DNA of 23,735 nt from a virus, in IMG/VR virus record IMGVR_UViG_3300035180_001006, positions 1-23,735 of that record, one strand, 5' to 3'. Made by a program: the position numbers and the translations under genes. Shown piece after piece: positions 91 through 19,069 of this stretch (position 1 is its first letter; each line of letters opens with the position of its first letter). Under the pieces are notes generated by a model. The model was not told the DNA's origin, did not search any database, and worked only from the letters and a program-made list of their open reading frames with translations.

Positions 91-105
91 GCGCTGCGCG
101 AGTAG

Positions 106-996: not shown

Positions 997-1199
997 GCGA
1001 ATTGCAACTGGCGTTTGCGTTGGCGTGAGAGCGTAACGAGAATGATTGCCGAATGGCGGCGGGATTCAACCGGCAGCTTGTCGTTGTTAAGCTCTTGCAT
1101 TTCGCGGCGATCTGCAAAAGCAACAAGGCAACTGTCGCACAGCATCGTGTCGCATGGCTTGGTTTCACCGCAAGGGCACTTGGAATTTTCAAAGCTCAT
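993..1199 (-). CDS. Small cysteine-rich protein
   Basis: The product is 68 residues from ATG 1199-1197. The first 25 residues carry CPCG, a further Cys, and CDSC, consistent with a zinc-binding knuckle. The rest is basic (SRRHSA, SRQRKRQ). I prefer this start to one 102 bases upstream because the upstream stop and this start form ATGA (1199-1196). Function unknown; a nucleic-acid or protein-binding role is plausible. Confidence 0.55.
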   Translation of the reverse strand: MSFENSKCPCGETKPCDTMLCDSCLVAFADRREMQELNNDKLPVESRRHSAIILVTLSRQRKRQLQFA

Positions 1200-1633: not shown

Positions 1634-1923
1634 CTCCTAAAAACCTCCGTGCCGTCCCCGGCGGGAACGCAGTAGGGGCGTTCCTTGGGTTGTGGCGCAG
1701 ACGTTGGCCGCTCGCGCCGGATGCGGTCGTTGTATTCTTGGGCGGCGTGGCTCGCCAGCTTGTGCGCCTTCGTCTTGGACTTCTCGAACCCGCCGACGCC
1801 TTCGATTGAACAACCCAGCGCATCGTTAATAAACCAATCCCACCAGCCGCTTGCTCGGCGGGACAGTCTCGGAATAGCGCGGCCCGTCACGCGGTCATGG
1901 ACATTTAGGGCGTGCGGTTTCAT
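1630..1923 (-). CDS. Hypothetical protein directly downstream of intI
   Basis: The product is 97 residues. Its ATG (1923-1921) overlaps the intI stop (1922-1920) as ATGA, so the two genes are very likely translationally coupled. The protein is basic, tryptophan-containing (SGWWDWFINDA) and mostly helical, ending in a charged tail. No known family is recognised. It shows that the integron integrase lies inside the phage leftward operon and not in a separate unit. Confidence 0.6.
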   Translation of the reverse strand: MKPHALNVHDRVTGRAIPRLSRRASGWWDWFINDALGCSIEGVGGFEKSKTKAHKLASHAAQEYNDRIRRERPTSAPQPKERPYCVPAGDGTEVFRR

Positions 1924-2915
1924 TTGTCCAATGGCGATTTGATGCACTCTGCCGGCTTCCGCGCAAGATGGATATAAATCAGCGTCGTCTCAATCTTCCG
2001 GTGCCCCATCAAATCCTTGATACGGTAGATGTCCGTGCCAGCTTCGTAAAGATGCGTGCCAAAGCAATGCCGGAAGCAATGCGGCGTGAACCTTTGATCC
2101 AGCCCGATGAGATGCCGCGCTGCCTGAACGCATTTCTGAATGGTGTTCTCGTGGATGTGCCACCGCTTCAACCGGCCCTGATCCTCCGGGTCAGGCGAGA
2201 GATATTTTGCACCGAATACATATTGCCAGCCAAATTCACGTTCCGCGTTCCTGTATTTGTGCCGCAAGGCATCCGGCAAGGCCACGCACGCGCCGCCGTC
2301 CTGCTGCCATCGCAACCTCATGCGTTCAATCTGCGCCCTCAGATCGTCCCGCAAAGTTTCCGGCAACATCACTTGGCGGTCATGATCCTGCTTCGGCGCA
2401 CGGATCGTCACCGTGCCGCGCTCGAAATCAATCTCTTGGGCGCGCAAGTCGAGGGCTTCATTGATGCGTAGCCCGCAACCGTAAAGCGTGCGGCAGACCA
2501 GCCGGTTCTCCTCACCCTGGACGGCCCGGATCAACTCAAGCGTGCGCGCCTTCGCTATCACGATGGGTAGTCGCTTCGGCTTTGCCGCCAAGCTGAACTG
2601 CCCGAAATCGCCGAGCTTCACCTTCAACACCTCGCGATAGAGGCAGACGATGGCGCACATGGCCGAGTGCTGCGTAGACCATGCCACCTTCTTCACATCC
2701 GCCAGGTAGGTCAGGAACGCGCGGATTTCCGGCTCGCGCATTTCCCTCGGATCACGGTTATGAAACGCCGCGAACTCGTAACAATAGCCGAGATACTGGG
2801 CGATGCTGCTGCGCTTGTAGCGGAGCATGGTCATCACCTCGCGCATTTCCTCGCGCAGCCGTTTCGGCTTCGGTTCTGCTTTCGCGGTGTGAATCTCCAT
2901 TTTAACAGATGCCAC
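1920..2915 (-). CDS. intI: Integron integrase (IntI-type tyrosine recombinase)
   Basis: IntI enzymes recombine folded single-stranded attC sites with attI or with each other. From the GTG start (331 residues), the SAM-like core-binding domain spans about 20-105 and the catalytic domain about 115-331. Visible catalytic residues are Arg150 (GCGLRINEAL), Lys175, His279 and Arg282 (TPHCFRH), His305 (LMGHRKIETT) and nucleophile Tyr314. The insert at about 210-260 (ALPDALRHKY to LKRWHIHENT) is the extra IntI domain that other phage integrases lack, and the end (IKSPLD) also fits IntI. ATG 2900-2898 is an equally good start; neither has a clear ribosome site. The gene is leftward and abuts attI (junction at 2930/2931). 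It is coupled to the next phage gene by ATGA. The family is certain; activity is not tested. Confidence 0.95.
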   Translation of the reverse strand: MASVKMEIHTAKAEPKPKRLREEMREVMTMLRYKRSSIAQYLGYCYEFAAFHNRDPREMREPEIRAFLTYLADVKKVAWSTQHSAMCAIVCLYREVLKVKLGDFGQFSLAAKPKRLPIVIAKARTLELIRAVQGEENRLVCRTLYGCGLRINEALDLRAQEIDFERGTVTIRAPKQDHDRQVMLPETLRDDLRAQIERMRLRWQQDGGACVALPDALRHKYRNAEREFGWQYVFGAKYLSPDPEDQGRLKRWHIHENTIQKCVQAARHLIGLDQRFTPHCFRHCFGTHLYEAGTDIYRIKDLMGHRKIETTLIYIHLARKPAECIKSPLDK

Positions 2916-2939
2916 TCGGCATATTAGATGTTAGAGAGC
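2901..2939 (+). other. Candidate attI and first cassette junction
   Basis: The bases GTTAGAGAGC (2930-2939) are a core site with the predicted cut after G2930. They are the perfect reverse complement of the R'' box of the first attC (3077-3086), which marks the left border of cassette 1. To the left, ATGCC-ACTC-GGCAT (2909-2922) forms a small hairpin flanked by TTTTAAC and GTTAGAG. IntI-binding elements of attI are not recognisable by eye. The site lies only 15-30 bases from the intI start, so attI must overlap the intI 5' end. Confidence 0.65.
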
Positions 2940-3160
2940 TTTTCACACTCCGCTCGGAGCATGTTGGAAATTTCCATGTAGATGACGACCATGCACCGGC
3001 GCTGGGTTCGTTCCTCGTCATTGAAGGCGCGAGCCTTGTCCATTTCACGCGCTCTACGCTCAAGCCGTTTCGCCATGCTCTCTAACAATTCGATGGAGCA
3101 CAACGCGGCTTGGCTACTGACTTCGGCCATCATCTCTTTACGTTCGGGTGTCGCATTCAT
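2924..3160 (-). CDS. Cassette 1 protein, helical, unknown
   Basis: The product is 78 residues from ATG 3160-3158, inside the loop of attC1, to TAA 2926-2924, which lies beyond the cassette border in attI. It is charged and helical (EMMAEV, RLERRAREMDKARAF) and probably a coiled-coil-like protein. About the first 28 residues are encoded by attC1. The end (CEKLSNI) is encoded by the junction with attI. No known family is seen. It sits 8 bases upstream of the intI GTG, so ribosomes finishing here could re-initiate on intI. Confidence 0.6.
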   Translation of the reverse strand: MNATPERKEMMAEVSSQAALCSIELLESMAKRLERRAREMDKARAFNDEERTQRRCMVVIYMEISNMLRAECEKLSNI

Positions 3161-3213
3161 TTCGATCCTTATACCGCGCTCGCCGCCGCGTGGCTCATCT
3201 CACCGTTCAGCGG
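3077..3213 (+). other. attC: attC1 (cassette 1, cut 3205/3206)
   Basis: R'' GCTCTCTAAC (3077-3086) is an exact reverse complement of the cassette start at 2930. Left arm GATGGAGCACAACGCGGC pairs with right arm GCCGCGTGGCTCATC, leaving extra bases only on the left. R' is GTTCAGC. The loop carries the cassette 1 start codon and the cassette 2 stop codon. Confidence 0.85.
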
Positions 3214-3723
3214 ATACGGCGTCGCGTCCCCTCGCAGGTAGAGCGGATGGGCGGGCGAGCCGTCTTTGTTTTGTTTCAGGCAGTAGAGGTGCGGCAGTAG
3301 CGCCATAACCTGCTTGTCTCTGCCCATGTGGTTGCCGTCCTTGCCCCACGCCGCGATTACGATTCCCGCGCCTTGCGAGAGAGTTTTCAACGTGCGGTCA
3401 TTGTCCGGCCCGATTGGGTCTTGCGCGGCCATCATGTCTCGCGGTTGCGTGGCACGGAAGGCGAAGAGATTCACCATGCAGAGTCCGCCGTAGTTCCACC
3501 GCTTCGCGTAGCCCACGCAGCGGCGGATTGTCGGGTCGTCTTGCGTCTCGTCAGCCGTCGAGGGGTTTAGTCCCACGAACATGCAGTAGGGCGCGTCACT
3601 CCATCGCCGCCACAGGTCGTAGCGATAGAGTCGGCACGGCGAAAGAACCGCTGAACAAGGCGATGCATGGAACGCGCTTATCGCGTCCATCGGCAATTCA
3701 AGAGTCTGTTGAGGCGCGTCCAT
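3169..3723 (-). CDS. DUF1643 family protein (cassette 2)
   Basis: The product is 184 residues from ATG 3723-3721, which lies in the right arm of attC2. The open frame extends upstream, but that stretch reads antisense over cassette 3. The diagnostic DUF1643 block is clear: MFVGLNPSTADE (48-59), DDPTIRRC (62-69), YAKRWNYGGL (72-81), VNLFAFRAT (84-92), then GPDND and a VIAAWG strand near 122-127. DUF1643 proteins are common in phages and plasmids; their biochemical role is not established to my knowledge. The last 13 residues (PLNGEMSHAA onward) are read from attC1 and the stop is in the attC1 loop, outside this cassette. Confidence 0.85.
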   Translation of the reverse strand: MDAPQQTLELPMDAISAFHASPCSAVLSPCRLYRYDLWRRWSDAPYCMFVGLNPSTADETQDDPTIRRCVGYAKRWNYGGLCMVNLFAFRATQPRDMMAAQDPIGPDNDRTLKTLSQGAGIVIAAWGKDGNHMGRDKQVMALLPHLYCLKQNKDGSPAHPLYLRGDATPYPLNGEMSHAAASAV

Positions 3724-3742
3724 GAGATTATTCGTTCGGCGA
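3648..3742 (+). other. attC: attC2 (cassette 2, cut 3734/3735)
   Basis: R'' CCGCTGAAC pairs exactly with the cassette start at 3205. Left arm CATGGAACGCGC pairs with GCGCGTCCATG and leaves one extra A. R' is GTTCGGC. The DUF1643 ATG is within the right arm. Confidence 0.8.
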
Positions 3743-3943
3743 TTCCGTTCCGAACGGTGGATTGCAGTAGATGAGTTCCGGCTTCGCGGTTGGTTTTCCT
3801 TCGAGGAAGTCGAGGACGTGTTGAGGCGTGAACCAGATGCCGAGCGCAGCGGCGAGGAAGCCGCCAGTTCCGCAGGCCGGGTCAATCGCCGAACCAGTCG
3901 CTGCACCCAACGATGTGGGCGTTGACGTTTTTCGTGTTTTCAT
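3728..3943 (-). CDS. Miniature N6-methyltransferase-like protein (cassette 3)
   Basis: The product is only 71 residues from ATG 3943-3941 (in the attC3 loop; ATGA overlap with the upstream stop). It contains IDPACGTGGFLAAA (about 21-34), which is the SAM-binding motif I of HsdM-type DNA adenine methylases. It also contains NPPFGT (about 61-66), the catalytic motif IV. Between them is FTPQHVLDFLEG, a segment that in full methylases precedes motif I, so the order looks permuted. Full enzymes have several hundred residues; this can hardly be a complete methylase. It may be a remnant assembled from fragments, a SAM-binding decoy, or one chain of a complex. Residues 1-15 come from attC3 and the end SPNE from attC2. 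Confidence 0.55.
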   Translation of the reverse strand: MKTRKTSTPTSLGAATGSAIDPACGTGGFLAAALGIWFTPQHVLDFLEGKPTAKPELIYCNPPFGTESPNE

Positions 3944-3988
3944 AGTCTTTGGTCGCCCGCCTCGTGGATGAGCTTGTCGTTCAGGCGC
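3885..3988 (+). other. attC: attC3 (cassette 3, cut 3979/3980)
   Basis: R'' AATCGCCGAAC matches the cassette start at 3734 over 11 bases. Left arm GCTGCACCCAACGA pairs with TCGTGGATGAGC, with extra G and A on the left. The loop has the ATGA overlap of the genes of cassettes 3 and 4. Confidence 0.82.
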
Positions 3989-4125
3989 AGAGCACGCGCC
4001 TTGTCCCATCGAGCCTTTGCAGCGGCGCGGGCTTGCGCCTTTGTGCGGGCTTTGGCTTTTCCCGTCCCCGCCTTGCCGCCTCGCGCCCCGATGGCGGCGA
4101 GGTATTTGGTGATTGGGTCGCTCAC
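3940..4125 (-). CDS. Small basic Ala/Lys-rich protein (cassette 4, second gene)
   Basis: The product is 61 residues from GTG 4125-4123, which overlaps the upstream stop as GTGA. It begins VSDPITKYLAAIGARGGKAG and continues with alternating Lys/Ala/Arg repeats, then WDKARALRLNDKLIHEAG. It matches a common type of short 'RGGKA' basic protein found in phages and cassettes. The tail LNDKLIHEAGDQRL is encoded by the neighbouring attC3, and its stop overlaps the next gene's ATG. It is probably nucleic-acid binding; function unknown. Confidence 0.6.
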   Translation of the reverse strand: MSDPITKYLAAIGARGGKAGTGKAKARTKAQARAAAKARWDKARALRLNDKLIHEAGDQRL

Positions 4126-4355
4126 ACGCGGCTCGCGATTGCGAAGGCTTCGATTGCGTCCTCGCGTGATTCGTAGCCTGAGAGTGCTTCCCGGCTGTCG
4201 TTGAAGATTACGAACCATTCCCCGGATACGATTTCCGAGTCTATGATTCCGCCGCCTGCATTCGGGTTGCAGAGCATCGCGCCGGGCCGTGATTCCGTCC
4301 AGCCGGTGCAGAGGGTGTTCAGTGCTTCGATTACTTGGTTCGTGTTCGTTTTCAT
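4122..4355 (-). CDS. Hypothetical protein, 77 residues (cassette 4, first gene)
   Basis: ATG 4355-4353 begins MKTNTNQVIEALNTL. The protein has a short helix, a glycine-rich turn (NPNAGGG), a beta region (GEWFVIFND) and a final helix (YESREDAIEAFAIA). It is a compact domain with an Asp/Glu-rich end. The start lies about 80 bases left of attC4, so unlike most cassette genes here its N-terminus is not attC-encoded. The family is not recognised. Confidence 0.6.
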   Translation of the reverse strand: MKTNTNQVIEALNTLCTGWTESRPGAMLCNPNAGGGIIDSEIVSGEWFVIFNDSREALSGYESREDAIEAFAIASRV

Positions 4356-4436
4356 GGCTATACACTGCCATGCGCAAGCCGGTTGCACAAGAGAAATCTG
4401 CAACTATTTTCCGATTGTTTGTAAGCCATTGAAAAT

Positions 4437-4532
4437 GCGCCAGAACCACGGGATGCAGCGAACCCGGCTTGAGCGTTTCGGTTGCAATCATGGCGTCTTG
4501 TGGGCCGGGTCGCTGATCCCGACGTTATGCCG
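4437..4532 (+). other. attC: attC4 (cassette 4, cut 4524/4525)
   Basis: R'' GCGCCAGAAC is 9/10 to the cassette start at 3979. Left arm CGGGATGCAGCGAACCCGGC pairs with GCCGGGTCGCTGATCCCG, with extra G and A on the left. It is nearly identical to attC15. Confidence 0.9.
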
Positions 4533-4932
4533 TCTGGTAGCCACGGTCGCCGATGACATGGATGCTTTCCGAGCCGTCGTATTCCTCAATCTCGAATTGA
4601 GCGCCTTTGGTAAGCCATTCCACATTGAGGTCGTCCGCACCGAGGACGCACACATAGGCATCAGCTTTGCCGACCGCCTCGCGGATTAGTTGCTCCGCGA
4701 GCTTGCCAGCCTTTTCCTTGTCCCCGTCGAGGACGGCTTGCACGATGTCTCGGTGAGTTGTGAGCAGCGGTTTCCACTCATCGTCGTTCCACGTTGCCCA
4801 GCCTGCCCCGAATCCGGGGGAGTAGAGCACCGCCACTTTGCCGTCTTTCTCCATTCGCGGGAAACGGCATAACAAGGCGCTGGAGGCAATAGTGCCCCCG
4901 CCTTCTGTTTTCGTTTGGTCTTCGTTGTTCAT
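4525..4932 (-). CDS. Conserved phage-type hypothetical protein (cassette 5)
   Basis: The product is 135 residues from ATG 4932-4930, inside the attC5 loop and overlapping the upstream stop (ATGA). The body starts near residue 33 with VAVLYSPGFGAGWATWN, followed by a helical segment (DIVQAVLDGDKEKAGKLAEQ), a strand with VCVLGADDLNVEWL and an acidic end (FEIEEYDGSESI). I recall this pattern from unannotated phage and cassette proteins but know no function. About residues 6-25 (KTEGGGTIASSALLCRF) are attC5-encoded. It is one of only two cassette genes that stop at their own cassette border: TAA 4527-4525 is part of the core site itself. Confidence 0.7.
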   Translation of the reverse strand: MNNEDQTKTEGGGTIASSALLCRFPRMEKDGKVAVLYSPGFGAGWATWNDDEWKPLLTTHRDIVQAVLDGDKEKAGKLAEQLIREAVGKADAYVCVLGADDLNVEWLTKGAQFEIEEYDGSESIHVIGDRGYQTA

Positions 4933-4995
4933 ATATTTTTTGTGTTATCGGAGTCTTCCGCCGGGGCACTGTGCCTCAGCTTTTCGTTGGGCTGC
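4864..4995 (+). other. attC: attC5 (cassette 5, cut 4986/4987)
   Basis: R'' ACGGCATAAC pairs over 10 bases with the cassette start at 4524. Left arm CTGGAGGCAATAGTGCCCC pairs with GGGGCACTGTGCCTCAG, with extra G and A on the left. The loop carries an ATGA stop/start overlap at 4929-4932. Confidence 0.9.
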
Positions 4996-5531
4996 TTGGC
5001 GAACGTCCTCAGTTCATCGGCAGCCGCTTTGAGTTTTTGGATTGTGTCCGGTTGCCGCGCTGCCGGATGGCACACGCGGATTAGTTTCGCAGGCCAGAGT
5101 TTTGCCACGGCATCGCCAGCGAGTTTCCCGAACGTGATTACGATGTCGGGATTGTGGTGCTCAAGCGCACACTGGATATGTCGCGGCACTGGCAGGCAGA
5201 TTGTTTTCGGGTCGCCAGCGATTTCCGGCGAGGCTTCCTCCCAGATTATCGCATCACACATTTCACCGAACGCAGCCTTGAGCCTTCGGCCACTTACGCA
5301 GCCAGCGAATAGCGAGTAGTGGATCAGTCGCAGACGGTATTCGTCCCGTTTCATCCAGTGCATCCGCTCGATGCTTGCCTTGACCTTTTCCGGGTCACGC
5401 ACCCACATATTTTGCATGAAGGCCACGACGACGCAGCCCAACAATTCCTTGCTGACAACCGCCTTATCGCTGGTGATTCGAGAGTCACCGGCTTCGGCGG
5501 GCATCGCGGGCGGCATTGAGGTTGTAGACAT
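4929..5531 (-). CDS. Uracil-DNA glycosylase-like protein (cassette 6)
   Basis: The product is 200 residues from ATG 5531-5529 in the attC6 loop. The core resembles the UDG-like fold: a helical front, SLFAGCVSGRRLKAAFG (about 73-89), a strand and helix with NPDIVITFGKLAGDAV (about 127-142), then IRVCHPAARQPD (151-162), where HPAAR stands at the place of the C-terminal catalytic motif of UDGs. The usual N-terminal GxDPG motif is not evident, so it may be a divergent or non-glycosylase member. The last 25 residues (QPNEKLRHSAPAED onward) are read out of the cassette through the core site into attC5. The stop overlaps the next ATG. Confidence 0.6.
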   Translation of the reverse strand: MSTTSMPPAMPAEAGDSRITSDKAVVSKELLGCVVVAFMQNMWVRDPEKVKASIERMHWMKRDEYRLRLIHYSLFAGCVSGRRLKAAFGEMCDAIIWEEASPEIAGDPKTICLPVPRHIQCALEHHNPDIVITFGKLAGDAVAKLWPAKLIRVCHPAARQPDTIQKLKAAADELRTFAKQPNEKLRHSAPAEDSDNTKNI

Positions 5532-5566
5532 CTTGGCGGCGGTGTTAGAGTTTCACGTTCTGCCTA
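5433..5566 (+). other. attC: attC6 (cassette 6, cut 5557/5558)
   Basis: R'' GCAGCCCAAC pairs over 10 bases with the cassette start at 4986. Left arm CTGACAACCGCC pairs with GGCGGTGTTAG, leaving an extra A. R' is GTTCTGC. The cassette 6 ATG is in the loop. Confidence 0.8.
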
Positions 5567-5830
5567 CCAGTCCCACCGTCTCAGTGTTTCAGCCAGCCCG
5601 AGCACGTAGCGCAGAGTTGCTGCGCGCTCGCGGCGCAGTTCGCGGGCCGGACAACACGAGTCCTCGTCGGCCACGATCTTTTCTATTGCCGTGGCATCTT
5701 CGTCGAGTGCCCGGCACAGGGCGTCATAGGCTTCGTCCCACGGGTAGGCAGAACCACTTGCTGCACCAGAACCCGGCTTGGCTTGGGCAGTTCGGACGCC
5801 CGTTTCTTCGTTCACATTTTCTAGTTTCAT
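5564..5830 (-). CDS. Helical hypothetical protein (cassette 7)
   Basis: The product is 88 residues from ATG 5830-5828, inside the attC7 loop, with an ATGA overlap to the gene upstream. It has an N-terminal attC-encoded linker (AQAKPGSGAASGS). Two charged helices follow (YDALCRALDEDATAIEKIVA and LRRERAATLRYVLGLAETLR). No known family is visible. It ends RRWDW at TAG 5566-5564, 6 bases inside its own cassette. Together with cassette 5 it is an exception to the read-through rule. Confidence 0.6.
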   Translation of the reverse strand: MKLENVNEETGVRTAQAKPGSGAASGSAYPWDEAYDALCRALDEDATAIEKIVADEDSCCPARELRRERAATLRYVLGLAETLRRWDW

Positions 5831-5881
5831 AAAGTCTCTTTCGGTTGCGCCGCCGGGTCGGTGAGCTTTTCGTTAGCAGCA
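5743..5881 (+). other. attC: attC7 (cassette 7, cut 5872/5873)
   Basis: R'' GGTAGGCAGAAC pairs over 12 bases with the cassette start at 5557. Left arm GCTGCACCAGAACCCGGC pairs with GCCGGGTCGGTGAGC, with extra bases on the left. The loop holds ATGA at 5827-5830. Confidence 0.88.
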
Positions 5882-6156
5882 TCCCATGCGTCCGCCGCCT
5901 CTGCCTTGCTGCGTTTCCAGAGTTTCATCGGCGGGGACTTCCAAACTTCCTCGCAATCTTCATTTGGGCAGGTGTAGGCGAACTCCTTGCCGTGGTTATC
6001 CCGCGTCGCTTCGAGTCTCACCGGCGAGAATCCACACCGCCAGCACGGTAGCACATCGCGCCCCCACTTTTGCTTGCCCACGAGACTGCTGCTAACAACC
6101 GGCTGCACGCGAACCGGCGCGGGCCTCAGCAGTTCAGATGTCGGAGACGTATTCAC
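5827..6156 (-). CDS. Lar-like zinc-ribbon protein (cassette 8)
   Basis: The product is 109 residues. The start is GTG 6156-6154, chosen because it overlaps the upstream stop as GTGA inside the attC8 loop. The core has LPCWRCGFSPVRL (about 36-48), then YTCPNEDCEEVW about 18 residues on, and ends with AEAADAWDAAN. That layout matches Lar-family restriction-alleviation and related phage zinc ribbons (CPFCG...C..C...EAI.AWN). A role against host restriction is possible by family only. The tail ANEKLTDPAAQPKETL is attC7-encoded. The stop overlaps the next ATG. Confidence 0.65.
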   Translation of the reverse strand: MNTSPTSELLRPAPVRVQPVVSSSLVGKQKWGRDVLPCWRCGFSPVRLEATRDNHGKEFAYTCPNEDCEEVWKSPPMKLWKRSKAEAADAWDAANEKLTDPAAQPKETL

Positions 6157-6204
6157 GGTTTCTCTTGTTCTCGCGCCGGTCGGTGAGCCGGAGCGTTAGC
6201 CGAA
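6087..6204 (+). other. attC: attC8 (cassette 8, cut 6195/6196)
   Basis: R'' TGCTGCTAAC pairs over 10 bases with the cassette start at 5872. Left arm GGCTGCACGCGAACCGGCGC pairs with GCGCCGGTCGGTGAGCC. The loop holds GTGA at 6153-6156. Confidence 0.88.
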
Positions 6205-6536
6205 GGCTGATACGTCACGCGGTCTGCCACCATCATGCAGAAGTTCGCCACGTCGGCGCATTCGTCGGCGGTCTTTTCCGGGTTGGGGCTGTCGATGCCT
6301 TCCGAGTGAGCCGTAAAGGACTGTTGCACTTCCACGGTTTCGTCGAGCATCCGTTCCACCAGTTCCCACGGGTGGTCTTTGAGCCATCCTTCGCGGTCGC
6401 CCTTGTGCCGGTTCTTCGCGAGCTTGGCTTCCATGCGTTTCGCGAAGGCGAGCACATGCGGCCACGTCGGGGAATCGGCTAACAAATCACTGGAGGCAAC
6501 AGCGCCCCCGTCTTGCATTTGAGCATCACTTTTCAT
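6153..6536 (-). CDS. MazG-like nucleotide pyrophosphohydrolase (cassette 9)
   Basis: The product is 127 residues from ATG 6536-6534 in the attC9 loop. The all-alpha core has KNRHKGDREGWLKDHPWELV (about 41-60) with E58, E61, E66 and E69, then DECADVANFCMMVADR with E92 and D95. This is the ExxE...ExxD metal-binding scheme of MazG and related dNTP pyrophosphohydrolases. The 'NRHKG-GW' lead-in is typical of the phage group that includes MazZ-like enzymes. Such enzymes hydrolyse nucleoside triphosphates to monophosphates and can reshape the nucleotide pool or lower alarmones. The tail from SANAPAHRP is attC8-encoded. The stop overlaps the next gene's GTG. Confidence 0.75.
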   Translation of the reverse strand: MKSDAQMQDGGAVASSDLLADSPTWPHVLAFAKRMEAKLAKNRHKGDREGWLKDHPWELVERMLDETVEVQQSFTAHSEGIDSPNPEKTADECADVANFCMMVADRVTYQPSANAPAHRPAREQEKP

Positions 6537-6600
6537 CGGTTGTTTCCTTTGGTTGCGAGGCGTCGCTGTCGGCGCTGTGCCTCAGTTCTACGTTCGGCCA
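6475..6600 (+). other. attC: attC9 (cassette 9, cut 6592/6593)
   Basis: R'' TCGGCTAAC pairs over 9 bases with the cassette start at 6195. Left arm ACTGGAGGCAACAGCGCC pairs with GGCGCTGTGCCTCAGT, with extra G and A on the left. The MazG-like gene starts in the loop. Confidence 0.9.
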
Positions 6601-6849
6601 CACCCGGCGCGACTCGTCGCCCCAGATGTCCAGCCCTGCCGCGAAGCACAGCCAGATGAGCCGGATGACTCGCGGGTTTTGGTCGTCAGGCCGTTGCGTG
6701 TGAAGTCTCGGCAGCCAGAACCACCACACGAAGTTGAAGCGGCTACGATATTCGCCATCCGGTTCTGCGTAGCCTCTTGGCGCGATGAAGCAGTGTGGCC
6801 GAACCAGTCGCTTCAGCGAACGGCGGGATTGCGTCTCAGTTATATTCAT
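6526..6849 (-). CDS. Tryptophan-rich hypothetical protein (cassette 10)
   Basis: The product is 107 residues from ATG 6849-6847 in the attC10 loop, with an ATGA overlap upstream. The N-terminus (ETQSRRSLKRLVRP) is attC-encoded. The body has FNFVWWFWLPRLH, then VIRLIWLCFAAGLDIW, either buried aromatic core strands or a weak membrane segment. The tail WPNVELRHSADSD and beyond is encoded by attC9, and the stop lies 11 bases inside the next gene. Family unknown. Confidence 0.6.
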   Translation of the reverse strand: MNITETQSRRSLKRLVRPHCFIAPRGYAEPDGEYRSRFNFVWWFWLPRLHTQRPDDQNPRVIRLIWLCFAAGLDIWGDESRRVWPNVELRHSADSDASQPKETTDEK

Positions 6850-6893
6850 AGCGTCTTGTGCCCGCCGTCGCTGAGCTTGTCGTTCGGTGAAAT
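6793..6893 (+). other. attC: attC10 (cassette 10, cut 6882/6883)
   Basis: R'' GTGTGGCCGAAC pairs over 12 bases with the cassette start at 6592. Left arm GCTTCAGCGAACGGCGGG pairs with CCCGCCGTCGCTGAGC, with two extra bases (T, A) six apart on the left, a textbook attC. The loop holds ATGA at 6846-6849. Confidence 0.92.
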
Positions 6894-7226
6894 TGGGATG
6901 CCGCCACCAGCAGTCTCCGTCGGCGTGGCCTTTGCTTCGGAAGAAGGCAATTTCTGGTTGGCGGCAAAGAGTTCGCGCACGGCTTCATTCAGGCGCGAGA
7001 GCATCATCTGCATTTTGATGCGGTCTATCAGGTCGTGCGCTTCGATGGTCAGGATTTCCACCCCTTCATCGTCTCGCACCGGCACTTGGATTTCCTTCGT
7101 GGCGACACCTTGGCCGGGCTTCACTTCGGGGACGGTGATTGTGAATGGCACGTATTTCACCGAACCCGTCGTCGCAGCCAACCCCGCGCAGGCGTCCTGA
7201 TTTTCGTTGCTCGTTTTCGTTTCCAT
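6846..7226 (-). CDS. Hypothetical protein, 126 residues (cassette 11)
   Basis: ATG 7226-7224 is in the attC11 loop. After an attC-encoded start (NENQDACAGLAATTGS) comes a beta-rich part (VKYVPFTITVPEV, KEIQVPVRDDEGVEILTI) and a helical part (HDLIDRIKMQMMLSRLNEAV), then a linker. The last residues SPNDKLSDGGHKTL are encoded by attC10. The stop overlaps the next start as ATGA. No known family is recognised; the layout suggests a small structural or binding domain. Confidence 0.6.
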   Translation of the reverse strand: METKTSNENQDACAGLAATTGSVKYVPFTITVPEVKPGQGVATKEIQVPVRDDEGVEILTIEAHDLIDRIKMQMMLSRLNEAVRELFAANQKLPSSEAKATPTETAGGGIPISPNDKLSDGGHKTL

Positions 7227-7274
7227 AGCGTTCAGATTTTCGGCGCGGGGCGGCTGGACTCTGCGTAGGGCGCA
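7154..7274 (+). other. attC: attC11 (cassette 11, cut 7265/7266)
   Basis: R'' ATTTCACCGAAC pairs over 12 bases with the cassette start at 6882. Left arm GTCGCAGCCAACCCCGCGC pairs with GCGCGGGGCGGCTGGAC. R' is degenerate, GTAGGGC in place of GTTRRRY. Confidence 0.82.
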
Positions 7275-7462
7275 AAGGCCGCGATGCGTTCTCCGAGGAT
7301 GTTTGCATACAGGGTCATCGCTTCCAGTTGGCGGTTGAGCCTCGATCGTTCGGTTGCGTCCAGCGAGCGATACAGGTCTCCACCAATGAAGGCGGTCAGC
7401 TTGTTGCGCTTGTCGTCCAGTTCGGTCTTTTCGGTCACTACTCGTTCTTGATGCAGTTTCAT
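7232..7462 (-). CDS. crAss001_48-like small phage protein (cassette 12)
   Basis: The product is 76 residues from ATG 7462-7460, chosen over an in-frame start 48 bases upstream because the protein then begins MKLHQERVVTEKTELDDKRN, as is usual in this group. The pattern QERVV-EK-ELD-K--KL-AFI, then LYRSLDATERSRLNRQLEAM and YANILGERI matches the short two-helix phage family I know as crAss001_48-like. Function unknown. The tail PYAESSRPAPKI reads into attC11, where the usual Asn codon is Tyr (TAC). Confidence 0.65.
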   Translation of the reverse strand: MKLHQERVVTEKTELDDKRNKLTAFIGGDLYRSLDATERSRLNRQLEAMTLYANILGERIAAFAPYAESSRPAPKI

Positions 7463-7481
7463 TTTAGTTTTTCTGTTGTTC

Positions 7482-7584
7482 GTGCGCCCGAACCACTGCA
7501 TGGAGCACAACGGCGGGCGCGTTGCCGTCGTGCAAATTCGTGCGTCACTTGTGCCCGCCGTGGCTCATGCAGACGTTCGGCGCT
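7482..7584 (+). other. attC: attC12 (cassette 12, cut 7575/7576)
   Basis: R'' GTGCGCCCGAAC corresponds, with one T/C change and one gap, to the altered cassette start at 7265. Left arm TGCATGGAGCACAACGGCGG pairs imperfectly with CCGCCGTGGCTCATGCA. The loop has the cassette 13 stop. Confidence 0.8.
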
Positions 7585-7832
7585 TGGCATTGTGCCGTCC
7601 ACGCTGGCAGTGACCATGACAGCACGGCGTCCACCGCATTCCGGTATTCGTGGTCGGCAGAGTATCGCTCTGATTGTAGGGCGAGCATCGCGAGCCTGTG
7701 CGCCGATTCCACGCTCCTTTCCAGCGCCGAACCATGCGGTGCAGCCAATGAGCTACATCGCGGGCAGGTGGACGTTTTCAGTCCTTCCCACGTTGCTCCA
7801 CATTGACACTCTCTTTTTCTGTAGGCGCTCAT
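7545..7832 (-). CDS. Zinc-ribbon protein with attC-encoded ribbon (cassette 13)
   Basis: The product is 95 residues from ATG 7832-7830, which sits in the right arm of attC13 and overlaps the upstream stop (ATGA). The first about 36 residues, with CQCG and CPRC (zinc ribbon), are encoded by attC13 itself. The remainder is helical (ERSVESAHRLAMLALQSERY, then a final helix). Ordinarily attC loops are non-coding, so this one has become a protein domain. The tail APNVCMSHGGHK comes from attC12. Function unknown. Confidence 0.55.
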   Translation of the reverse strand: MSAYRKRECQCGATWEGLKTSTCPRCSSLAAPHGSALERSVESAHRLAMLALQSERYSADHEYRNAVDAVLSWSLPAWTAQCQAPNVCMSHGGHK

Positions 7833-7856
7833 GGCTGGATTTTGTCGTTCGGCGGA
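7723..7856 (+). other. attC: attC13 (cassette 13, cut 7847/7848)
   Basis: R'' AGCGCCGAAC pairs over 10 bases with the cassette start at 7575. Left arm GTGCAGCCAATGAGC pairs with GCTCATGGCTGGAT. The loop encodes the zinc ribbon of the cassette 13 protein; its ATG is in the right arm. Confidence 0.8.
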
Positions 7857-8113
7857 AGTGCGGCATCCATGAGTCCCTTTGCACAACGGAAGATTTCGAG
7901 CTTCGACTCGGCAGCGGCGCGGCGTTGCGCTTCGACGCAGGCCACGTCCGCGAAGTATGCGACGGCCATCCGCAGAGTTCTTCGAGACTCGCCGCAGTCT
8001 ATGTCCTCGGTGATGTCGTTGCTGATTTTTGCGGCGCATTGAGCCTGTTTGTCCGTGAACCGCCGAACAAGCTCACTGGAGCGAACGTGGGCGGGCCGTG
8101 TGGGTTTGCTCAT
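7829..8113 (-). CDS. Helical hypothetical protein (cassette 14)
   Basis: The product is 94 residues from ATG 8113-8111 in the attC14 loop, with an ATGA overlap at both ends. The sequence is mostly helical (SELVRRFTDKQAQCAAKISN, then RTLRMAVAYFADVACVEAQR) with several Cys and Ala. The tail ALPPNDKIQP is attC13-encoded. No family recognised. Confidence 0.6.
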   Translation of the reverse strand: MSKPTRPAHVRSSELVRRFTDKQAQCAAKISNDITEDIDCGESRRTLRMAVAYFADVACVEAQRRAAAESKLEIFRCAKGLMDAALPPNDKIQP

Positions 8114-8172
8114 AAAGGTTTCTGGTTTTCGAGCGTCGCAGATCCGCGTCGCTCAGTTCGGTCGTTCTGACT
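8060..8172 (+). other. attC: attC14 (cassette 14, cut 8164/8165)
   Basis: R'' CCGCCGAAC pairs over 9 bases with the cassette start at 7847. Left arm ACTGGAGCGAACGTGG pairs with CCGCGTCGCTCAGT, with extra G and A on the left. The loop holds ATGA at 8110-8113. Confidence 0.87.
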
Positions 8173-8427
8173 AGCGCGGCGCATCGCGGTGTCACGCTTC
8201 TTGAGGAGCGCGCTGATTGGTTTCACGAACTTCTCGACGACGGCACGCACCTTTTCCTTGTCGGCACATTCTTTGCAGATGTCAGGCTGGTGGACGCAGC
8301 CGCAGATTATCGCCTCGCAGGTGTGGCAGTAATCACGGGCGCAGACTTTGCACTTCGTCAGCCATGACGATTCACGCTTGCACACGTCGCAGGCTTCGAC
8401 CGTCTTTGCTGGTATTTTGATTTTCAT
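8110..8427 (-). CDS. Multi-cysteine zinc-binding protein (cassette 15)
   Basis: The product is 105 residues from ATG 8427-8425. The frame continues upstream into attC15, but this start gives the natural MKIKIPAKTVEACDVC opening. Eight or more cysteines follow in pairs: CDVC, CKVC, CHTC, then CGC and CKEC, between about residues 13 and 57. The layout is a cross-brace or double zinc finger resembling FYVE/PHD/B-box-like folds. A charged helix follows (KEKVRAVVEKFVKPISALLK). The last 20 residues (ASQNDRTERRG onward) come from attC14. It could bind nucleic acid or host proteins; the family is not fixed. Confidence 0.65.
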   Translation of the reverse strand: MKIKIPAKTVEACDVCKRESSWLTKCKVCARDYCHTCEAIICGCVHQPDICKECADKEKVRAVVEKFVKPISALLKKRDTAMRRASQNDRTERRGSATLENQKPL

Positions 8428-8441
8428 TTTGTTCGACGTGA

Positions 8442-8536
8442 TGCCCAACCACGGGATGCAGAGAACCCGGCTTGGGCGTTTCAGTTTCAATTCATGCGTC
8501 TTGTGGGCCGGGTCTCTGATCCCGACCGTTAGGGCA
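8442..8536 (+). other. attC: attC15 (cassette 15, cut 8528/8529)
   Basis: R'' TGCCCAAC does not pair with the start of this cassette at 8164, unlike all others. Left arm CGGGATGCAGAGAACCCGGC pairs with GCCGGGTCTCTGATCCCG, with extra G and A. It differs from attC4 by a compensated C-to-A/G-to-T pair in the stem. Confidence 0.9.
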
Positions 8537-8785
8537 ATGAGCACGCACCACTTCAGCCGCAGCGCGTTTGGATTCCAGATGGCGAGCCATCGCGGCCTCG
8601 CAGTATTGAGCGGAGCAGTATGTCACCATCTCAGCTTTCGCCGCTTCCTCGTCACCTCCGAAGTCCGCTTGCACGAGATGCCGGATTTGCACCAAGTCCC
8701 ACGGATAGGGATTGTCGAGCAGGTCACGAATTGCCCTAACCATGCGCGGCAGCGAACGGCTGGATTGCGCCTCGGTTTCAATCAT
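8492..8785 (-). CDS. Hypothetical protein, 97 residues (cassette 16)
   Basis: ATG 8785-8783 lies in the attC16 loop. The first 18 residues (ETEAQSSRSLPRMVRA) are attC-encoded and resemble the attC-encoded start of the cassette 10 protein. The body (IRDLLDNPYPWDLVQIRHLV, then a helix with two Cys) is helical. The tail CPNGRDQRPGPQDA comes from attC15. No known family. Confidence 0.55.
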   Translation of the reverse strand: MIETEAQSSRSLPRMVRAIRDLLDNPYPWDLVQIRHLVQADFGGDEEAAKAEMVTYCSAQYCEAAMARHLESKRAAAEVVRAHCPNGRDQRPGPQDA

Positions 8786-8830
8786 GGCGTTTTGGCCCAG
8801 CCGTCGCTGAGCTTGGGTCGTTAGATTTTG
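8730..8830 (+). other. attC: attC16 (cassette 16, cut 8820/8821)
   Basis: R'' ATTGCCCTAAC pairs over 11 bases with the cassette start at 8528. Left arm GCAGCGAACGGCTGG pairs with CCAGCCGTCGCTGAGC, with extra bases on the left. The loop has the cassette 16 ATG. Confidence 0.9.
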
Positions 8831-8975
8831 CGCGCCGCTCTGTGCTCGCGGTTTTCTCCCCCACCTCCGCCCACCGAAGAAGAGCAATGCGACGCATCTC
8901 CTCTTTTCGCTCGGCTTTGGTGCTACCCTTCCAGCGATTCCTTGCGCCTTTTTTACCCATGTCGGATGCGTTCAT
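8778..8975 (-). CDS. Small basic protein (cassette 17, second gene)
   Basis: The product is 65 residues from ATG 8975-8973, with an ATGA overlap to the gene upstream. MGKKGARNRWKGSTKAERKE and RRIALLRWAEVG form a short basic helix-turn-helix-like motif seen in many tiny phage and plasmid proteins (GKKGA-RW...ER-----A-RW). It is probably DNA-binding. The tail KSNDPSSATAG is encoded by attC16. Confidence 0.6.
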   Translation of the reverse strand: MNASDMGKKGARNRWKGSTKAERKEEMRRIALLRWAEVGEKTASTERRAKSNDPSSATAGPKRHD

Positions 8976-9151
8976 TTTTTCACCGGACTCCGAAGTCCTA
9001 GTCCCGCGTTTTGATGCGACCTTTTATCTCCGACCTCCCACGCTGGTATGCTGAACCATCCTCCGGGATGACAGCATGATCCGCCGGATGAGCGAAACCG
9101 CTCATCCCCCTTCTTGAGTTTTTCCCCGAACCTGATTTTTCGATGCGTCAT
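8972..9151 (-). CDS. Small hypothetical protein (cassette 17, first gene)
   Basis: The product is 59 residues from ATG 9151-9149. KIRFGEKLKKGDERFRSSGG, WFSIPAWEVGD and a final LRSPVKK match a known style of short phage proteins (GE-LKKGDE...W......G....RRP-K). I know no function. An ATGA overlap couples it to the downstream gene, and both are in the same long cassette. Confidence 0.55.
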   Translation of the reverse strand: MTHRKIRFGEKLKKGDERFRSSGGSCCHPGGWFSIPAWEVGDKRSHQNAGLGLRSPVKK

Positions 9152-9158
9152 AAAAAGC

Positions 9159-9364
9159 GTTCTTTGAGTCGTTGTCAGCCCAGCCCTATCGTGTCGCGCC
9201 TCGGTCGTCTTTCGACTCCGGTGATACACGCTCACACTGGCATTACTTGTTCGCTCTCGCCCGAAGGCCGCGCCATCCGAAGATGACGACTCGCTTGCGT
9301 TGTGCCGGTGAGCGCCGCGTGCGCTTACCAAGGATTTCGGTTTCGTTGTGACGACTCAAAGAAC
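9159..9364. repeat. 14-base inverted repeat bracketing 206 bases
   Basis: GTTCTTTGAGTCGT at 9159-9172 is perfectly repeated in inverted orientation at 9351-9364. The enclosed 178 bases have no clear gene. It could be a MITE-like insertion in cassette 17 or a chance match; no flanking target duplication is obvious. Confidence 0.4.
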
Positions 9365-9452
9365 TGCGGGAAGTATCATGCGTGACGTTACGCATTGCAA
9401 GAAGTTTGTTGAGATTGTTTTTTGGGCGCTCCGCTACCTCCTCCCGCTCCAT
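9243..9452 (-). CDS. Doubtful ORF in cassette 17
   Basis: This is a 69-codon frame from ATG 9452. The sequence is very basic (GKRTRRSPAQRKRVV) and has no recognisable domain. It spans one half of a 14-base inverted repeat (9159-9172 and 9351-9364). It may be the first gene of cassette 17 or a chance frame. The 9152-9480 stretch holds no other convincing gene. Confidence 0.2.
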   Translation of the reverse strand: MEREEVAERPKNNLNKLLAMRNVTHDTSRSSLSRHNETEILGKRTRRSPAQRKRVVIFGWRGLRARANK

Positions 9453-9480
9453 TCAGCAGCGAAAGCTCGGCTCTTAATTG

Positions 9481-9561
9481 GCAAAATCTAACCATGCGCT
9501 ACAGCGAACGGCTACGGCTCGCAGACTCGCCTTCGCCGTCGCTGAGCTTTTCGTTGGCCGT
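9481..9561 (+). other. attC: attC17, last of the array (cut 9553/9554)
   Basis: R'' GCAAAATCTAAC pairs over 12 bases with the cassette start at 8820. Left arm GCTACAGCGAACGGC pairs with GCCGTCGCTGAGC, with extra A and A on the left. R' is GTTGGCC; no further attC follows in 9562-16974 that I can find. Confidence 0.88.
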
Positions 9562-9684
9562 CAGCAGCTTCGGGTTGAGGCGGATTAAAACGCCAGCGCG
9601 TGTAGGCACCCATCGGTGTTTGAGCAGCCGCCAGAAGATGTGCGGTGTCAGCGACCAGTATTCGGGTTTGTAGGCGCGTTTCAT
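9499..9684 (-). CDS. Hypothetical protein ending in the terminal attC
   Basis: The product is 61 residues from ATG 9684-9682, coupled by ATGA to the nuclease gene upstream. It starts MKRAYKPEYWSLTPHIFWRL and continues with a basic segment. The last 20 residues (TANEKLSDGEG onward) are encoded by attC17, the last attC of the array, so the 3' end of this non-cassette gene has been supplied by the integron. No family recognised. Confidence 0.55.
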   Translation of the reverse strand: MKRAYKPEYWSLTPHIFWRLLKHRWVPTRAGVLIRLNPKLLTANEKLSDGEGESASRSRSL

Positions 9685-10395: not shown

Positions 10396-10408
10396 TAGGT
10401 TTGTTGTT

Positions 10409-11098
10409 CTACGAATTTATGTCGAAACGCTCGTCGGCGGGTTCGGGTTGCGGTTGCGTTGGCTTGAACCGCTTTGGCTCGCTGCCGTTTATCTCAACAA
10501 GGCGCGCGTAGGCGGCGTCCAGACGCTCAAGGAAGCCCGCCAGCGCGTCGGCAATGACCGCTTGAATCTTCTCGTCACGCTCAACCACAAGCACGAGCTT
10601 TGGCAACCGGCGGCCGTAGGAGATGAAATGCCATTTCTGCCATCGGGTGACGAACATTGAGAAGTGAACTTGCGGGCCGTATTCTTCAGGCAAGCCGCCG
10701 GCCAAAAGATACTTCACCTGATTCGGTGCCTGCGGGCATTTCAACTCGATCCCCGCCGTGCCGATAACGCCATCGGGCGAACACCCGGCGCGACCGTCAT
10801 CCGTGGTGATGAACGCGGGACGGTGAATCTCGTCGCCGAATTTGAACGCTAGCCAGTTGCGCGCTTCTTCTTCCAAGAGGTTGCCATCTTCGGCGGCGTG
10901 AGAAACCCAGCCATCTTGCATCGGCTGGCCTGTCCAACGCTCGGCGAGCTTTTTGTTGAGATACGTTTTCGGCATCTCGCCTTTGCGAATCTCCCATTTG
11001 TCGGTCACAAGGTTTCCAAACTCACTCGCGGTCACGACGCCAGCGCGGGCTGTCAGCCATTCCAATCCGCCTTGCTCGAAGCCGCTGAACACTTTCAC
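10409..11098 (-). CDS. YqaJ/lambda-type recombination exonuclease
   Basis: The product is 229 residues from ATG 11098-11096, overlapping the ERF gene's stop (ATGA). These alkaline exonucleases resect double-stranded ends for single-strand annealing. Visible motifs are the N-terminal GVVTASEFGNLV (20-31), the acidic helix GNLLEEEARNWL (72-83), GCSPDGVIG with Asp109, GIELKCPQ with Glu118 and Lys120, and the late motif GPQVHFSMFVTRW (141-153). The PD-(D/E)XK catalytic set is complete. Its pairing with an ERF annealing protein is the standard phage exonuclease/annealase pair. The C-terminal 30 residues are a Pro/Gln-rich tail. Confidence 0.85.
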   Translation of the reverse strand: MKVFSGFEQGGLEWLTARAGVVTASEFGNLVTDKWEIRKGEMPKTYLNKKLAERWTGQPMQDGWVSHAAEDGNLLEEEARNWLAFKFGDEIHRPAFITTDDGRAGCSPDGVIGTAGIELKCPQAPNQVKYLLAGGLPEEYGPQVHFSMFVTRWQKWHFISYGRRLPKLVLVVERDEKIQAVIADALAGFLERLDAAYARLVEINGSEPKRFKPTQPQPEPADERFDINS

Positions 11099-12194: not shown

Positions 12195-12212
12195 AGTTTT
12201 GTGTTGGTTGTG

Positions 12213-14701: not shown

Positions 14702-14702
14702 G

Positions 14703-16655: not shown

Positions 16656-16659
16656 GGTG

Positions 16660-19065: not shown

Positions 19066-19069
19066 AAAT

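Follow-up and report, generated by a model that had tools for sequence, protein, structure and literature searches.

An integron in a bacterial virus whose cassette genes run against their attC sites

Integrons are known as a bacterial adaptation tool, famous for drug resistance. In the sedentary chromosomal integrons of bacteria, attI lies at the 5' end of intI, the attC sites have R'', L'', L' and R' boxes with extra bases on the L'' arm, recombination occurs at a G^TT core, and each gene runs with its attC and has the attC at its 3' end. A second layout, the reverse-orientation integrase integron, occurs in Spirochaetota (PMC9668308). In that layout integrase and cassette genes lie on one strand, attI lies at the 3' end of intI, and the genes keep the usual relation to attC. 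Integrons in phages are also already in print: Qi et al. 2023 (PMC9892861) report 3 complete integrons and one cassette-less integrase in temperate phages, together with 17 CALINs, and show attC sites of phages recombining with IntI1 in E. coli. Those complete integrons sit in temperate Vibrio, Shewanella and P1 phages and are related to chromosomal or class 1 integrons; attC sites with divergent directions are noted in phage P12002L.

Here we analyzed a stretch of 23,735 nucleotides (the window), positions 1 to 23,735 of the IMG/VR virus record IMGVR_UViG_3300035180_001006. A first-pass annotation had described a complete integron with 17 cassettes within this phage genome, and that observation is confirmed. 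Its interpretation is only partly supported: a complete integron in a phage genome stands; a gene-capture machine for the phage itself is supported by cassette gain and loss in other phages with related integrases, but is not shown for this very phage; and the claim that such an array is rarely or never described was too strong. The annotation also missed what is new, which is that the cassette genes run against the attC polarity, toward intI, and that most of them read through the cassette junction in one fixed phase. We found neither reversed read-through arrays nor virus-only integrase lineages in the literature searched, including those parts of Qi et al. that we consulted.

Integrase, attI and attC sites in a phage genome

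The predicted integrase matches the NCBIfam profile TIGR02249 (integrase_gron) with 290.4 bits against a cut-off of 265, whereas its scores for XerC (108 against 335) and XerD (89.6 against 329.6) fall far below their cut-offs; none of 14 control genomes passes the TIGR02249 cut-off. The best solved structure is an IntI, PDB 2a3v (E 4.9e-54), and R150, K175, H279, R282, H305 and Y314, the catalytic residues, are invariant in an alignment of 6 integrases. Apart from the same phage, no relative found was more than 45% identical. The attI core lies 14 bases from the intI start codon and pairs exactly over 10 bases with the R'' of cassette 1 (border pair 2930/3084).

To ask whether the cassette borders could arise by chance, we searched positions 2900-9600 for exact complementary GTT..AAC pairs of at least 9 bases. 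There are 15, against 0.34 per dinucleotide shuffle (maximum 4, 200 shuffles); 14 of the 15 are cassette borders, and the other is a 14-bp inverted repeat inside cassette 17. Allowing one mismatch in 10, 15 of 17 R'' boxes match their own cassette start (attC12 and attC15 match at only 5 of 10), against 4-8 of 10 for the R' of the same integrated site. The left arm has more extra bases in 14 of 15 alignable sites, with a tie in attC16; attC6 and attC11 did not align in this test. A custom scanner for the two extra bases finds 10 sites with extras on the left arm and 0 on the right, whereas 50 shuffles give means of 0.12 and 0.06; a stricter version found 5 and 0. The sites have R'', L'', L' and R' boxes with the extra bases on the L'' arm, as in the sedentary chromosomal integrons of bacteria. 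The sites also covary: 14 of 20 pairs change on both sides, with a score of 0.333 against 0.127 shuffled (0 of 500) and at most 0.096 when slid, although the structure was drawn from these same sites. A covariance model built from the 17 sites also hits bacterial attC sites, for example in Akkermansiaceae (52.9 bits, E 1.2e-9).

A second IMG/VR record, 99.94% identical, carries the same array joined without gaps to the same phage genes, and together the two records give a circular map of about 45.6 kb with terminase and capsid genes. Terminase and major capsid were identified by profile, whereas a portal gene is only inferred from place and size, with no profile hit. The array therefore lies in a phage genome and not in a bacterial chromosome. 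Counting intI, the stop and the next start overlap (9) or lie within 8 bases (4) in 13 of 17 junctions, with two of the start codons chosen by hand.

Features of the window. Support for attC sites: B/A, border and arm comparison; B, border comparison only; X, extra-base scan; M, match to the covariance model, which was built from these sites.
Feature	Coordinates	Strand	Remarks and support
intI, integron integrase	1920..2915	-	331 aa from a GTG start
attI recombination core	2924..2940	+	G^TT at 2930, at the 5' end of intI
attC1	3077..3214	+	B/A, X, M (66.1 bits)
attC2	3647..3743	+	B/A, M
attC3	3885..3988	+	B/A, X, M
attC4	4437..4533	+	B/A, X, M
attC5	4864..4995	+	B/A, X, M
attC6	5433..5566	+	B, X, M (50.7 bits)
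attC7	5745..5881	+	B/A, X, M
attC8	6087..6204	+	B/A, M
attC9	6474..6601	+	B/A, X, M
attC10	6795..6891	+	B/A, X, M (89.8 bits)
attC11	7156..7239	+	B, M (51.6 bits); weakest arms; right border uncertain, model match runs to 7274
attC12	7484..7584	+	B/A, X, M; R'' does not match its own cassette start
attC13	7723..7856	+	B/A, M
attC14	8059..8173	+	B/A, M
attC15	8440..8537	+	B/A, M; R'' does not match its own cassette start; 90.7% identical to attC4 over 86 bases
attC16	8731..8829	+	B/A, M
attC17	9483..9562	+	B/A, X, M; distal end of the array
Cassette 1 gene	2924..3160	-	Reads through the junction in phase 0; stop lies 8 bases before intI
Cassette 2 gene, DUF1643	3169..3723	-	PF07799, 157 bits on the longer ORF 3169-3906; phase 0
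Cassette 3 gene, short N6-methylase-like piece	3728..3943	-	Weak PF02384 (below its cut-off) and phrog_799; phase 0
Cassette 4 region, longest ORF	3940..4491	-	Phase 0 at the junction; overlapped by a 93-aa ORF 4122-4403; gene model uncertain
Cassette 5 gene	4525..4932	-	Starts in attC5, stops at its junction
Cassette 6 gene, weakly like a phage DNA glycosylase	4929..5531	-	30% identity over 63% of its length to MW202510; phase 0
Cassette 7 gene	5564..5830	-	Stops before the junction
Cassette 8 gene	5827..6156	-	A relative is an ordinary gene in phage record G010: 59% identity over 64 aa to 5394-5585 of locus L230, a place without an attC model hit; phase 0
Cassette 9 gene	6153..6536	-	phrog_18269 (unknown function), E 1.1e-6; phase 0
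Cassette 10 gene	6526..6849	-	Phase 0
Cassette 11 gene	6846..7226	-	Phase 0
Cassette 12 gene, crAss001_48-related family	7232..7462	-	PF21825, 67.4 bits on ORF 7232-7510; matches in 80 phage records; stops at its junction
Cassette 13 gene	7545..7832	-	Phase 0
Cassette 14 gene	7829..8113	-	Phase 0
Cassette 15 gene	8110..8427	-	Phase 0 (on ORF 8110-8490)
Cassette 16 gene	8492..8785	-	Phase 0
Cassette 17, ORF nearest the junction	8778..8975	-	The cassette holds further ORFs; not the ORF used in the phase analysis
YqaJ-like recombinase/exonuclease	10409..11098	-	PF09588, 62 bits
ERF-family recombination protein	11095..11835	-	PF04404, 34.9 bits
DnaB-like replicative helicase	13406..14701	-	PF03796, PF00772
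Terminase large subunit	17611..19065	+	PF03237, 42.5 bits
Major capsid protein	22532..23590	+	NF033394, 139.5 bits, cut-off 80

Reversed cassette genes and a fixed phase at the junction

We next compared the window with other integrase loci (numbered L), only 82 viral and 80 bacterial loci, the best of pattern scans; the attC model, trained on the window, hits only 40 of the 82 and 29 of the 80. The attC polarity relative to intI is canonical. Upstream extra-base sites number 43 against 3 in viral loci and 17 against 1 in bacterial loci, and model hits upstream of intI are all on the minus strand, 97 viral and 45 bacterial (a count based on 102 of 107 viral and 70 of 71 other hits). In contrast, the cassette genes of the window lie on the opposite strand and start inside their own attC, so that the usual layout, with the gene upstream of its attC and read from the attI side, does not apply. 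By codon usage, the coding strand is reversed in 37 viral cassettes and canonical in 5, with 29 undecided; the corresponding numbers for bacterial loci are 0, 14 and 23. A cruder count by longest ORF is less clean: viral 44 reversed and 19 canonical, bacterial 7 reversed and 32 canonical. Nor does the window have the reverse-orientation integrase layout, as the array and attI lie at the 5' end of intI and the genes are turned within the cassettes, although in both layouts integrase and cassette genes lie on one strand. The virus Rctr41k (L018, by border pairs only, the model finding no site there) and L123 look like that other type, as do several bacterial loci.

In 13 of the 17 cassettes of the window, the gene reads through the cassette junction into the neighboring attC (or attI), and all 13 do so in phase 0, while the phases at R'' are 6/5/5. 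The other four cassettes (5, 7, 12, and 17 by its longest ORF) do not read through. In other viral arrays, 47 crossing genes are in phase 0 and 1 and 2 in the others, whereas 37 stop before the junction and 6 have no ORF or core; bacterial opposite-strand ORFs are distributed 5, 5 and 8.

The two records of the window's phage have the same array, and its own cassettes were not seen to change. Near-identical phages with related integrases, however, differ by whole cassettes. Comparing L074 with L075, and L116 with L119, 10 of 10 examined breakpoints lie at AAC, the recombination core (2 in one analysis, 8 in another), and the intI-proximal junction, the place of attI in the window, is itself a breakpoint in both comparisons. 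Protein tails are swapped in the process: for example, the same gene ends ...RPNA in L074 and ...RPNVKVRGPEAALSPEAP... in L075. This comparison of tails considered phase 0 only, and one of its ORFs (in L119) is just 29 aa. A cassette shared by two otherwise different phages, 85.8% identical, also has both ends at AAC. These results imply that phage integrons recombine in nature, although the cassette-swapping phages belong to another integrase lineage than the window.

In the integrase tree, the window groups with L072, L073 and L078 (SH-aLRT 99), all viral, and integrases fall into several virus-only groups. All 34 of 34 chosen viral records pass the TIGR02249 cut-off; of 31 tested, 15 carry TerL (phrog_15) and 13 portal (phrog_21). 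Many viral records lack the hallmark genes tested, and the record of L073, in the window's own integrase clade, has none of them and a 4768-aa ORF.

Interpretation and meaning

We conclude, with high confidence, that the window holds a genuine integron that belongs to the phage and is wired backwards. In this view, IntI, encoded right behind the array in the phage's leftward string of genes, recombines attC sites at the G^TT core and inserts cassettes at attI, next to its own start codon, so that new genes would enter at the intI end. Each cassette gene starts in the middle of its own attC, runs to the cassette end and in most cases has no stop of its own; it crosses into the next cassette's attC (or attI), always with AAC as a codon in this window, and stops there, near the next start codon. 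Neighbors would therefore supply each other's C-terminal tails, and cassettes would be plug-compatible because the phase at the junction is fixed. Of this model, the anatomy is shown by our analysis of the window and the natural breakpoints by that of other phages, whereas recombination of these sites by this IntI, transcription from the replication genes through the array into intI, and coupled translation at the stop/start overlaps are inferred.

Other explanations appear unlikely. The array might be a piece of a host chromosomal integron picked up by accident and without a lasting role, as reported for Vibrio anguillarum phages (PMC9892861), and a host origin long ago is plausible, since the nearest bacterial integrases in the tree drawing are from Verrucomicrobiota (L169, L226), albeit at weak forks. 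But the cassette genes are reversed against attC, unlike all 14 decidable bacterial cassettes, the integrases form several virus-only groups, two cassette genes have phage relatives, and the array is set in the phage's gene string with stop/start overlaps. Even less likely, the polarity could be misread, with ordinary cassettes, attI at the far end (9553) and intI merely at the array's tail. Because attC sites are near-palindromes and border complementarity is symmetric, the borders alone cannot decide this. The extra bases, however, lie on the same side relative to intI as in bacterial integrons, the natural breakpoints in other phages all lie at the AAC of R', including the intI-proximal junction, and the phase is fixed at R' but not at R''.

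That the sites are simply hairpin repeats between small phage genes (terminators or operon spacers), accompanied by an unrelated Xer-like integrase for lysogeny, is very unlikely. The hairpins do sit at gene junctions, and other phages use tyrosine integrases, but this reading is contradicted by the TIGR02249 score, the cross-hits of the model to bacterial attC sites and the breakpoints at the core in other phages. Least likely is a mis-assembly of a bacterial integron contig with a phage contig. Metagenome contigs can be chimeric, and the two records may not be independent; nevertheless, the second record spans the same junctions, and 20 other viral loci have at least one decidable reversed cassette beside an integron integrase.

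A broader possibility, which we consider somewhat more likely than not, is that phages own several integron lineages of their own and share a private pool of cassettes that follow a common standard: gene turned against attC, start codon inside the attC, and one fixed reading phase at the junction. Such a standard would make any viral cassette fit any viral array as part of a read-through operon, re-tag the C termini of neighboring proteins at each exchange, and separate the viral gene pool from the bacterial one.

The scheme is directly testable in E. coli, the natural before/after pairs give protein-level predictions, and the junction phase supplies a simple marker for finding more such arrays. 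Overall, viruses appear to run integrons of their own, with a different wiring that suits a compact gene string: cassettes join beside intI, could be expressed from the phage's own transcription, and are made compatible by a fixed reading phase. This offers an explanation for the turnover of small accessory genes, methylases and unknown proteins, in phage genomes.

The phage genome and its integron

We first asked whether the window could be placed in a larger phage genome. A second IMG/VR record (G001, IMGVR_UViG_3300036715_001249, 45,573 bases) matches the window, itself a whole virus record of 23,735 bases, over three long stretches, the first of which holds the whole integron (see table). 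G001 starts and ends inside dnaB, at window positions 13870 and 13878, and the window bridges that gap, so that together the two records, whose samples may not be independent, describe a circular map of about 45.6 kb. Judged from the match coordinates, the records differ by 66 bases in a repeat near 12.6-12.8 kb. The same phage's terminase occurs, 100% identical, in two short records. Scans found no close relative of the window's own phage with another array.

Coordinates of matched stretches and features in the window and in other records (L numbers denote loci, G numbers records)
Record	Coordinates	Feature	Remarks
Window	1-12775	Stretch matched by G001	99.94%, without gaps
Window	13878-19450	Stretch matched by G001	99.98%
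Window	19451-23735	Stretch matched by G001	99.86%
Window	2930-9553	17 integron cassettes	
Window	4437-4533 and 8440-8537	attC4 and attC15	90.7% identical over 86 bases, although the cassettes next to them show no such likeness
Window	9159-9375	14-base perfect inverted repeat in cassette 17	Arms about 200 bases apart; perhaps a small inserted element
Window	12527-13000	ORF with tandem repeats of about 11 residues	VKPARDAYAAA-like; the window and G001 differ here
L018 (KX853513, Virus Rctr41k)	4680-9975	Integron-type integrase annotated as xerD, cassette-border pairs downstream of it	Deposited virus genome; reverse-integrase layout
L006 (G005)	5455-10933	ORFs that look by eye like MuA and MuB, followed by an integron-type integrase	Phage; integrase 317 bits; no convincing cassette array
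L250 (G034)	2257-3255	Reverse transcriptase (phrog_1423)	In the record of L076; perhaps of the diversity-generating kind (a guess)

DnaB-like helicase, ERF and YqaJ proteins are encoded on the minus strand to the right of the array, and TerL and a major capsid protein on the plus strand. A 749-aa protein between TerL and capsid is portal-like by place only, as it has no profile hit. A search with Rfam at gathering thresholds returned nothing in the window, as expected if Rfam has no attC family, and a tRNA search found none.

The integrase passes the NCBIfam profile TIGR02249 (290.4 bits against a cut-off of 265), whereas none of 14 control genomes does; its nearest solved structure is 2a3v. 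Cassette borders are marked by complementarity between each cassette start and its own R'' box: 15 of 17 match at 9-10 of 10 bases, against 4-8 for the R' of the same integrated site, which is what the joining of circular cassettes leaves behind. A search for exact complementary pairs of 9 or more bases found 15, of which 14 are cassette borders, against 0.34 in shuffled sequence. We considered whether the inverted repeat in cassette 17 might also be a border, but rejected this because it lies inside the cassette. The arms of the sites covary, with 14 of 20 pairs changed on both sides, and the left arm carries the extra unpaired bases in 14 of 15 alignable sites. A scanner for these extra bases, which recovered 5 sites in a first, overly strict form, was loosened and supported the same side.

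As an independent check of the sites, we built a covariance model from the window's sites only and applied it to 82 viral and 80 bacterial integrase loci, a sample limited to the best matches of pattern scans. The model gave 107 hits with E up to 1 in 40 of the viral loci (L071, the window's own phage, being left out) and 71 hits in 29 of the bacterial loci, so about half the viral loci and more of the bacterial ones have no hit. The best bacterial hits are in Planctomycetia, Akkermansiaceae and Acidobacteria contigs. No site with E up to 1 was found in Virus Rctr41k, whose name is likewise not found in PMC9892861. Of the 107 viral hits, 101 were carried into the subsequent counts, leaving out one each in L072, L004, L084, L090, L091 and L144; with one L003 hit added from another search, this gave 102 hits in 37 loci. 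Of the 71 bacterial hits one was left out (L219, cut off by a contig end), giving 70 in 28 loci. Among the hits carried forward, those upstream of intI are all on the minus strand (97 viral, 45 bacterial), whereas those downstream are mostly on the plus strand (4 of 5 viral, 24 of 25 bacterial), the reverse-integrase layout.

Polarity, coding strand and reading phase

In bacterial and viral loci alike, the arm with the extra bases points the same way relative to intI: 17 against 1 and 43 against 3 upstream sites, respectively, in a count that left out L071, L018, L076, L125, L110 and L111. The window's attI is therefore at the 5' end of intI, as usual. The cassette genes, however, are on the other strand. 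A greedy ORF count, in which L071 is included, called 17 of 28 viral loci with a site reversed and 1 canonical by our cut, and 0 and 12 of 13 bacterial loci; taking the longest ORF gave 44 reversed to 19 canonical for viral cassettes and 7 to 32 for bacterial ones. Because these counts were noisy in GC-rich contigs, we scored coding strand by codon usage trained on the long ORFs of each locus. By this measure 37 viral cassettes are reversed, 5 canonical and 29 undecided, against 0, 14 and 23 for bacterial cassettes, and 20 of the 26 viral loci listed have at least one reversed cassette. In the window the reversed strand scores higher in 16 of 17 intervals, the other being a tie at zero. L071 was left out of the longest-ORF and codon-usage counts; the near-copies L074 and L076 both count in these and in the greedy count.

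We next examined how the cassette genes end. In the window, 13 of them run across the junction into the neighbor's attC or into attI, and all 13 read the AAC core as a codon. At R'', which lies inside a cassette and so need not match between cassettes, the phases are 6, 5 and 5. In 93 sites of other viral arrays, with the longest ORF taken at each junction, 47 cross in phase 0, one in phase 1 and two in phase 2, while 37 stop before the junction, 5 have no ORF and 1 has no core. The same test on the opposite strand at 70 bacterial sites gave 5, 5 and 8, with 12 stopping before, 39 without an ORF and 1 without a core. A version using codon scores gave 27 of 27 in phase 0, with 33 stopping before. 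The codon-score version left out L071, L123, L089 and L128 but counts both L074 and L076; the longest-ORF phase count left out these four loci and also L076. This fixed phase is what one expects if cassettes are swapped and must fit each other.

Integrons in phages have been reported (PMC9892861). In what we consulted of that paper, however, no reversed read-through arrays are described, and the claim of novelty is limited to the open-access literature searched, without preprints, which included PMC9668308, PMC8876359 and PMC11551772.

Cassette exchange and integrase lineages

Evidence for natural recombination comes from other phages; the window's own array has not been seen to change. L074 and L076 are identical over 14.9 kb, and L075 matches them at 98.6-99.9% in flanks and shared cassettes (one shared stretch at 89.8%) but differs by whole cassettes. 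The eight breakpoints examined lie at AAC, with shared sequence running up to a few bases past it, and one is at attI. L116 and L119 are 99.9% identical over 5.2 kb before the array and 100% identical over 1.3 kb of the intI side, and both array breakpoints lie at AAC; beyond that stretch, downstream of intI, they differ again. One cassette is shared between L074 and L116 at 85.8%, with both ends at AAC. Reading through these junctions in phase 0, the only phase examined here, the tails change with the neighbor. The gene ending VFTMVRPN-A in L074 ends VFTMVRPN-VKVRGPEAALSPEAP... in L075, the inserted gene takes over the N-A ending, and the frames next to attI in all four loci end N-LNSTTPDVA, although in L119 that frame has only 29 codons. 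The predicted tail peptides include one ending NEKLTDPAAQPKETL. Related DNA stretches of 72-80% identity also recur upstream of the integrase in L127, L074, L005, L084 and L092; in L127 the stretch lies in a C5 DNA methylase gene.

To ask whether these integrases form viral lineages, we built a tree of 147 integrases by a quick method with SH-aLRT support. The tree left out L071, 5 rows with internal stops (L138 among them) and 12 near-copies, so that 10 of the 13 rows that we had labeled reversed remained. The window groups with L072, L073 and L078 at 99, all viral, next to Verrucomicrobiota integrases with weak support. Other all-viral groups include one of 9 rows at 99, two of 5 rows at 98 and 95, and one of 35 rows at 81. 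The reversed label needs 7 changes, so a single origin is not shown. The integrase of one viral record, L128, groups with Lysobacter and Xanthomonas, and this is perhaps a host integron in a mislabeled or prophage contig. L172, a contig in a Rubrivivax MAG (JAJTDE010000039.1), and L125, an IMG/VR record, are both 34,391 long with the same integrase position; on these grounds alone they are probably the same viral contig, hinting at a Rubrivivax host. In INPHARED all integrase hits are under 60% identity.

All 34 of the 34 viral records chosen for this test pass the integrase cut-off. Phage hallmarks, tested by a few families only, were less uniform. The terminase families PF03237 and phrog_2 each hit only 4 of 31 viral records, whereas phrog_15 and phrog_21 hit 15 and 13 of a second set of 31. 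By PHROGs, L078's record has TerL, portal and primase, L003's has TerL and tail, and L099's has portal and head protein, whereas L072, L141 and L145 show only a DnaB-like helicase among the proteins tested. L073's record (G007), in the window's integrase clade, has a 4768-aa ORF and none of the hallmark genes tested, so its viral nature is not supported by these families. Of the cassette-differing phages, the records of L116 and L119 carry TerL and portal; that of L076 carries tail fiber, tape measure and a reverse transcriptase but none of the TerL and portal families tested.

Cassette contents and a proposed mode of action

In the window, the cassettes carry DUF1643, a crAss001_48-related protein, a weak DNA-glycosylase-like protein, a methylase-like piece and mostly unknowns. 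In other phages we found a C5 methylase, a PAPS-reductase domain and a weak radical-SAM match. Apart from cassette 8, the window's cassette proteins, leaving aside the smaller ORF inside cassette 4, found no relative in the loci examined by tblastn at E 1e-3. Cassette 8's relative, in phage record G010, lies at a place without an attC hit, which suggests that phage genes become cassettes.

Overall, we hold the reading of the array as a phage integron with reversed cassettes with high confidence, lowered slightly by the limited reach of the covariance model and by the restriction of the tail comparison to phase 0. The sequences show the layout of the array and the breakpoints in other phages; transcription, the action of this IntI on these sites, cassette entry and coupled translation are inferred, none of them from experiment. 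In the mechanism that we consider probable, the phage's leftward transcription would run through the array into intI. IntI would act on folded attC in single-stranded DNA, which is plentiful during phage replication, and new cassettes would enter at attI, next to intI. The fixed phase and the stop/start spacing point to coupled translation of the cassette genes.
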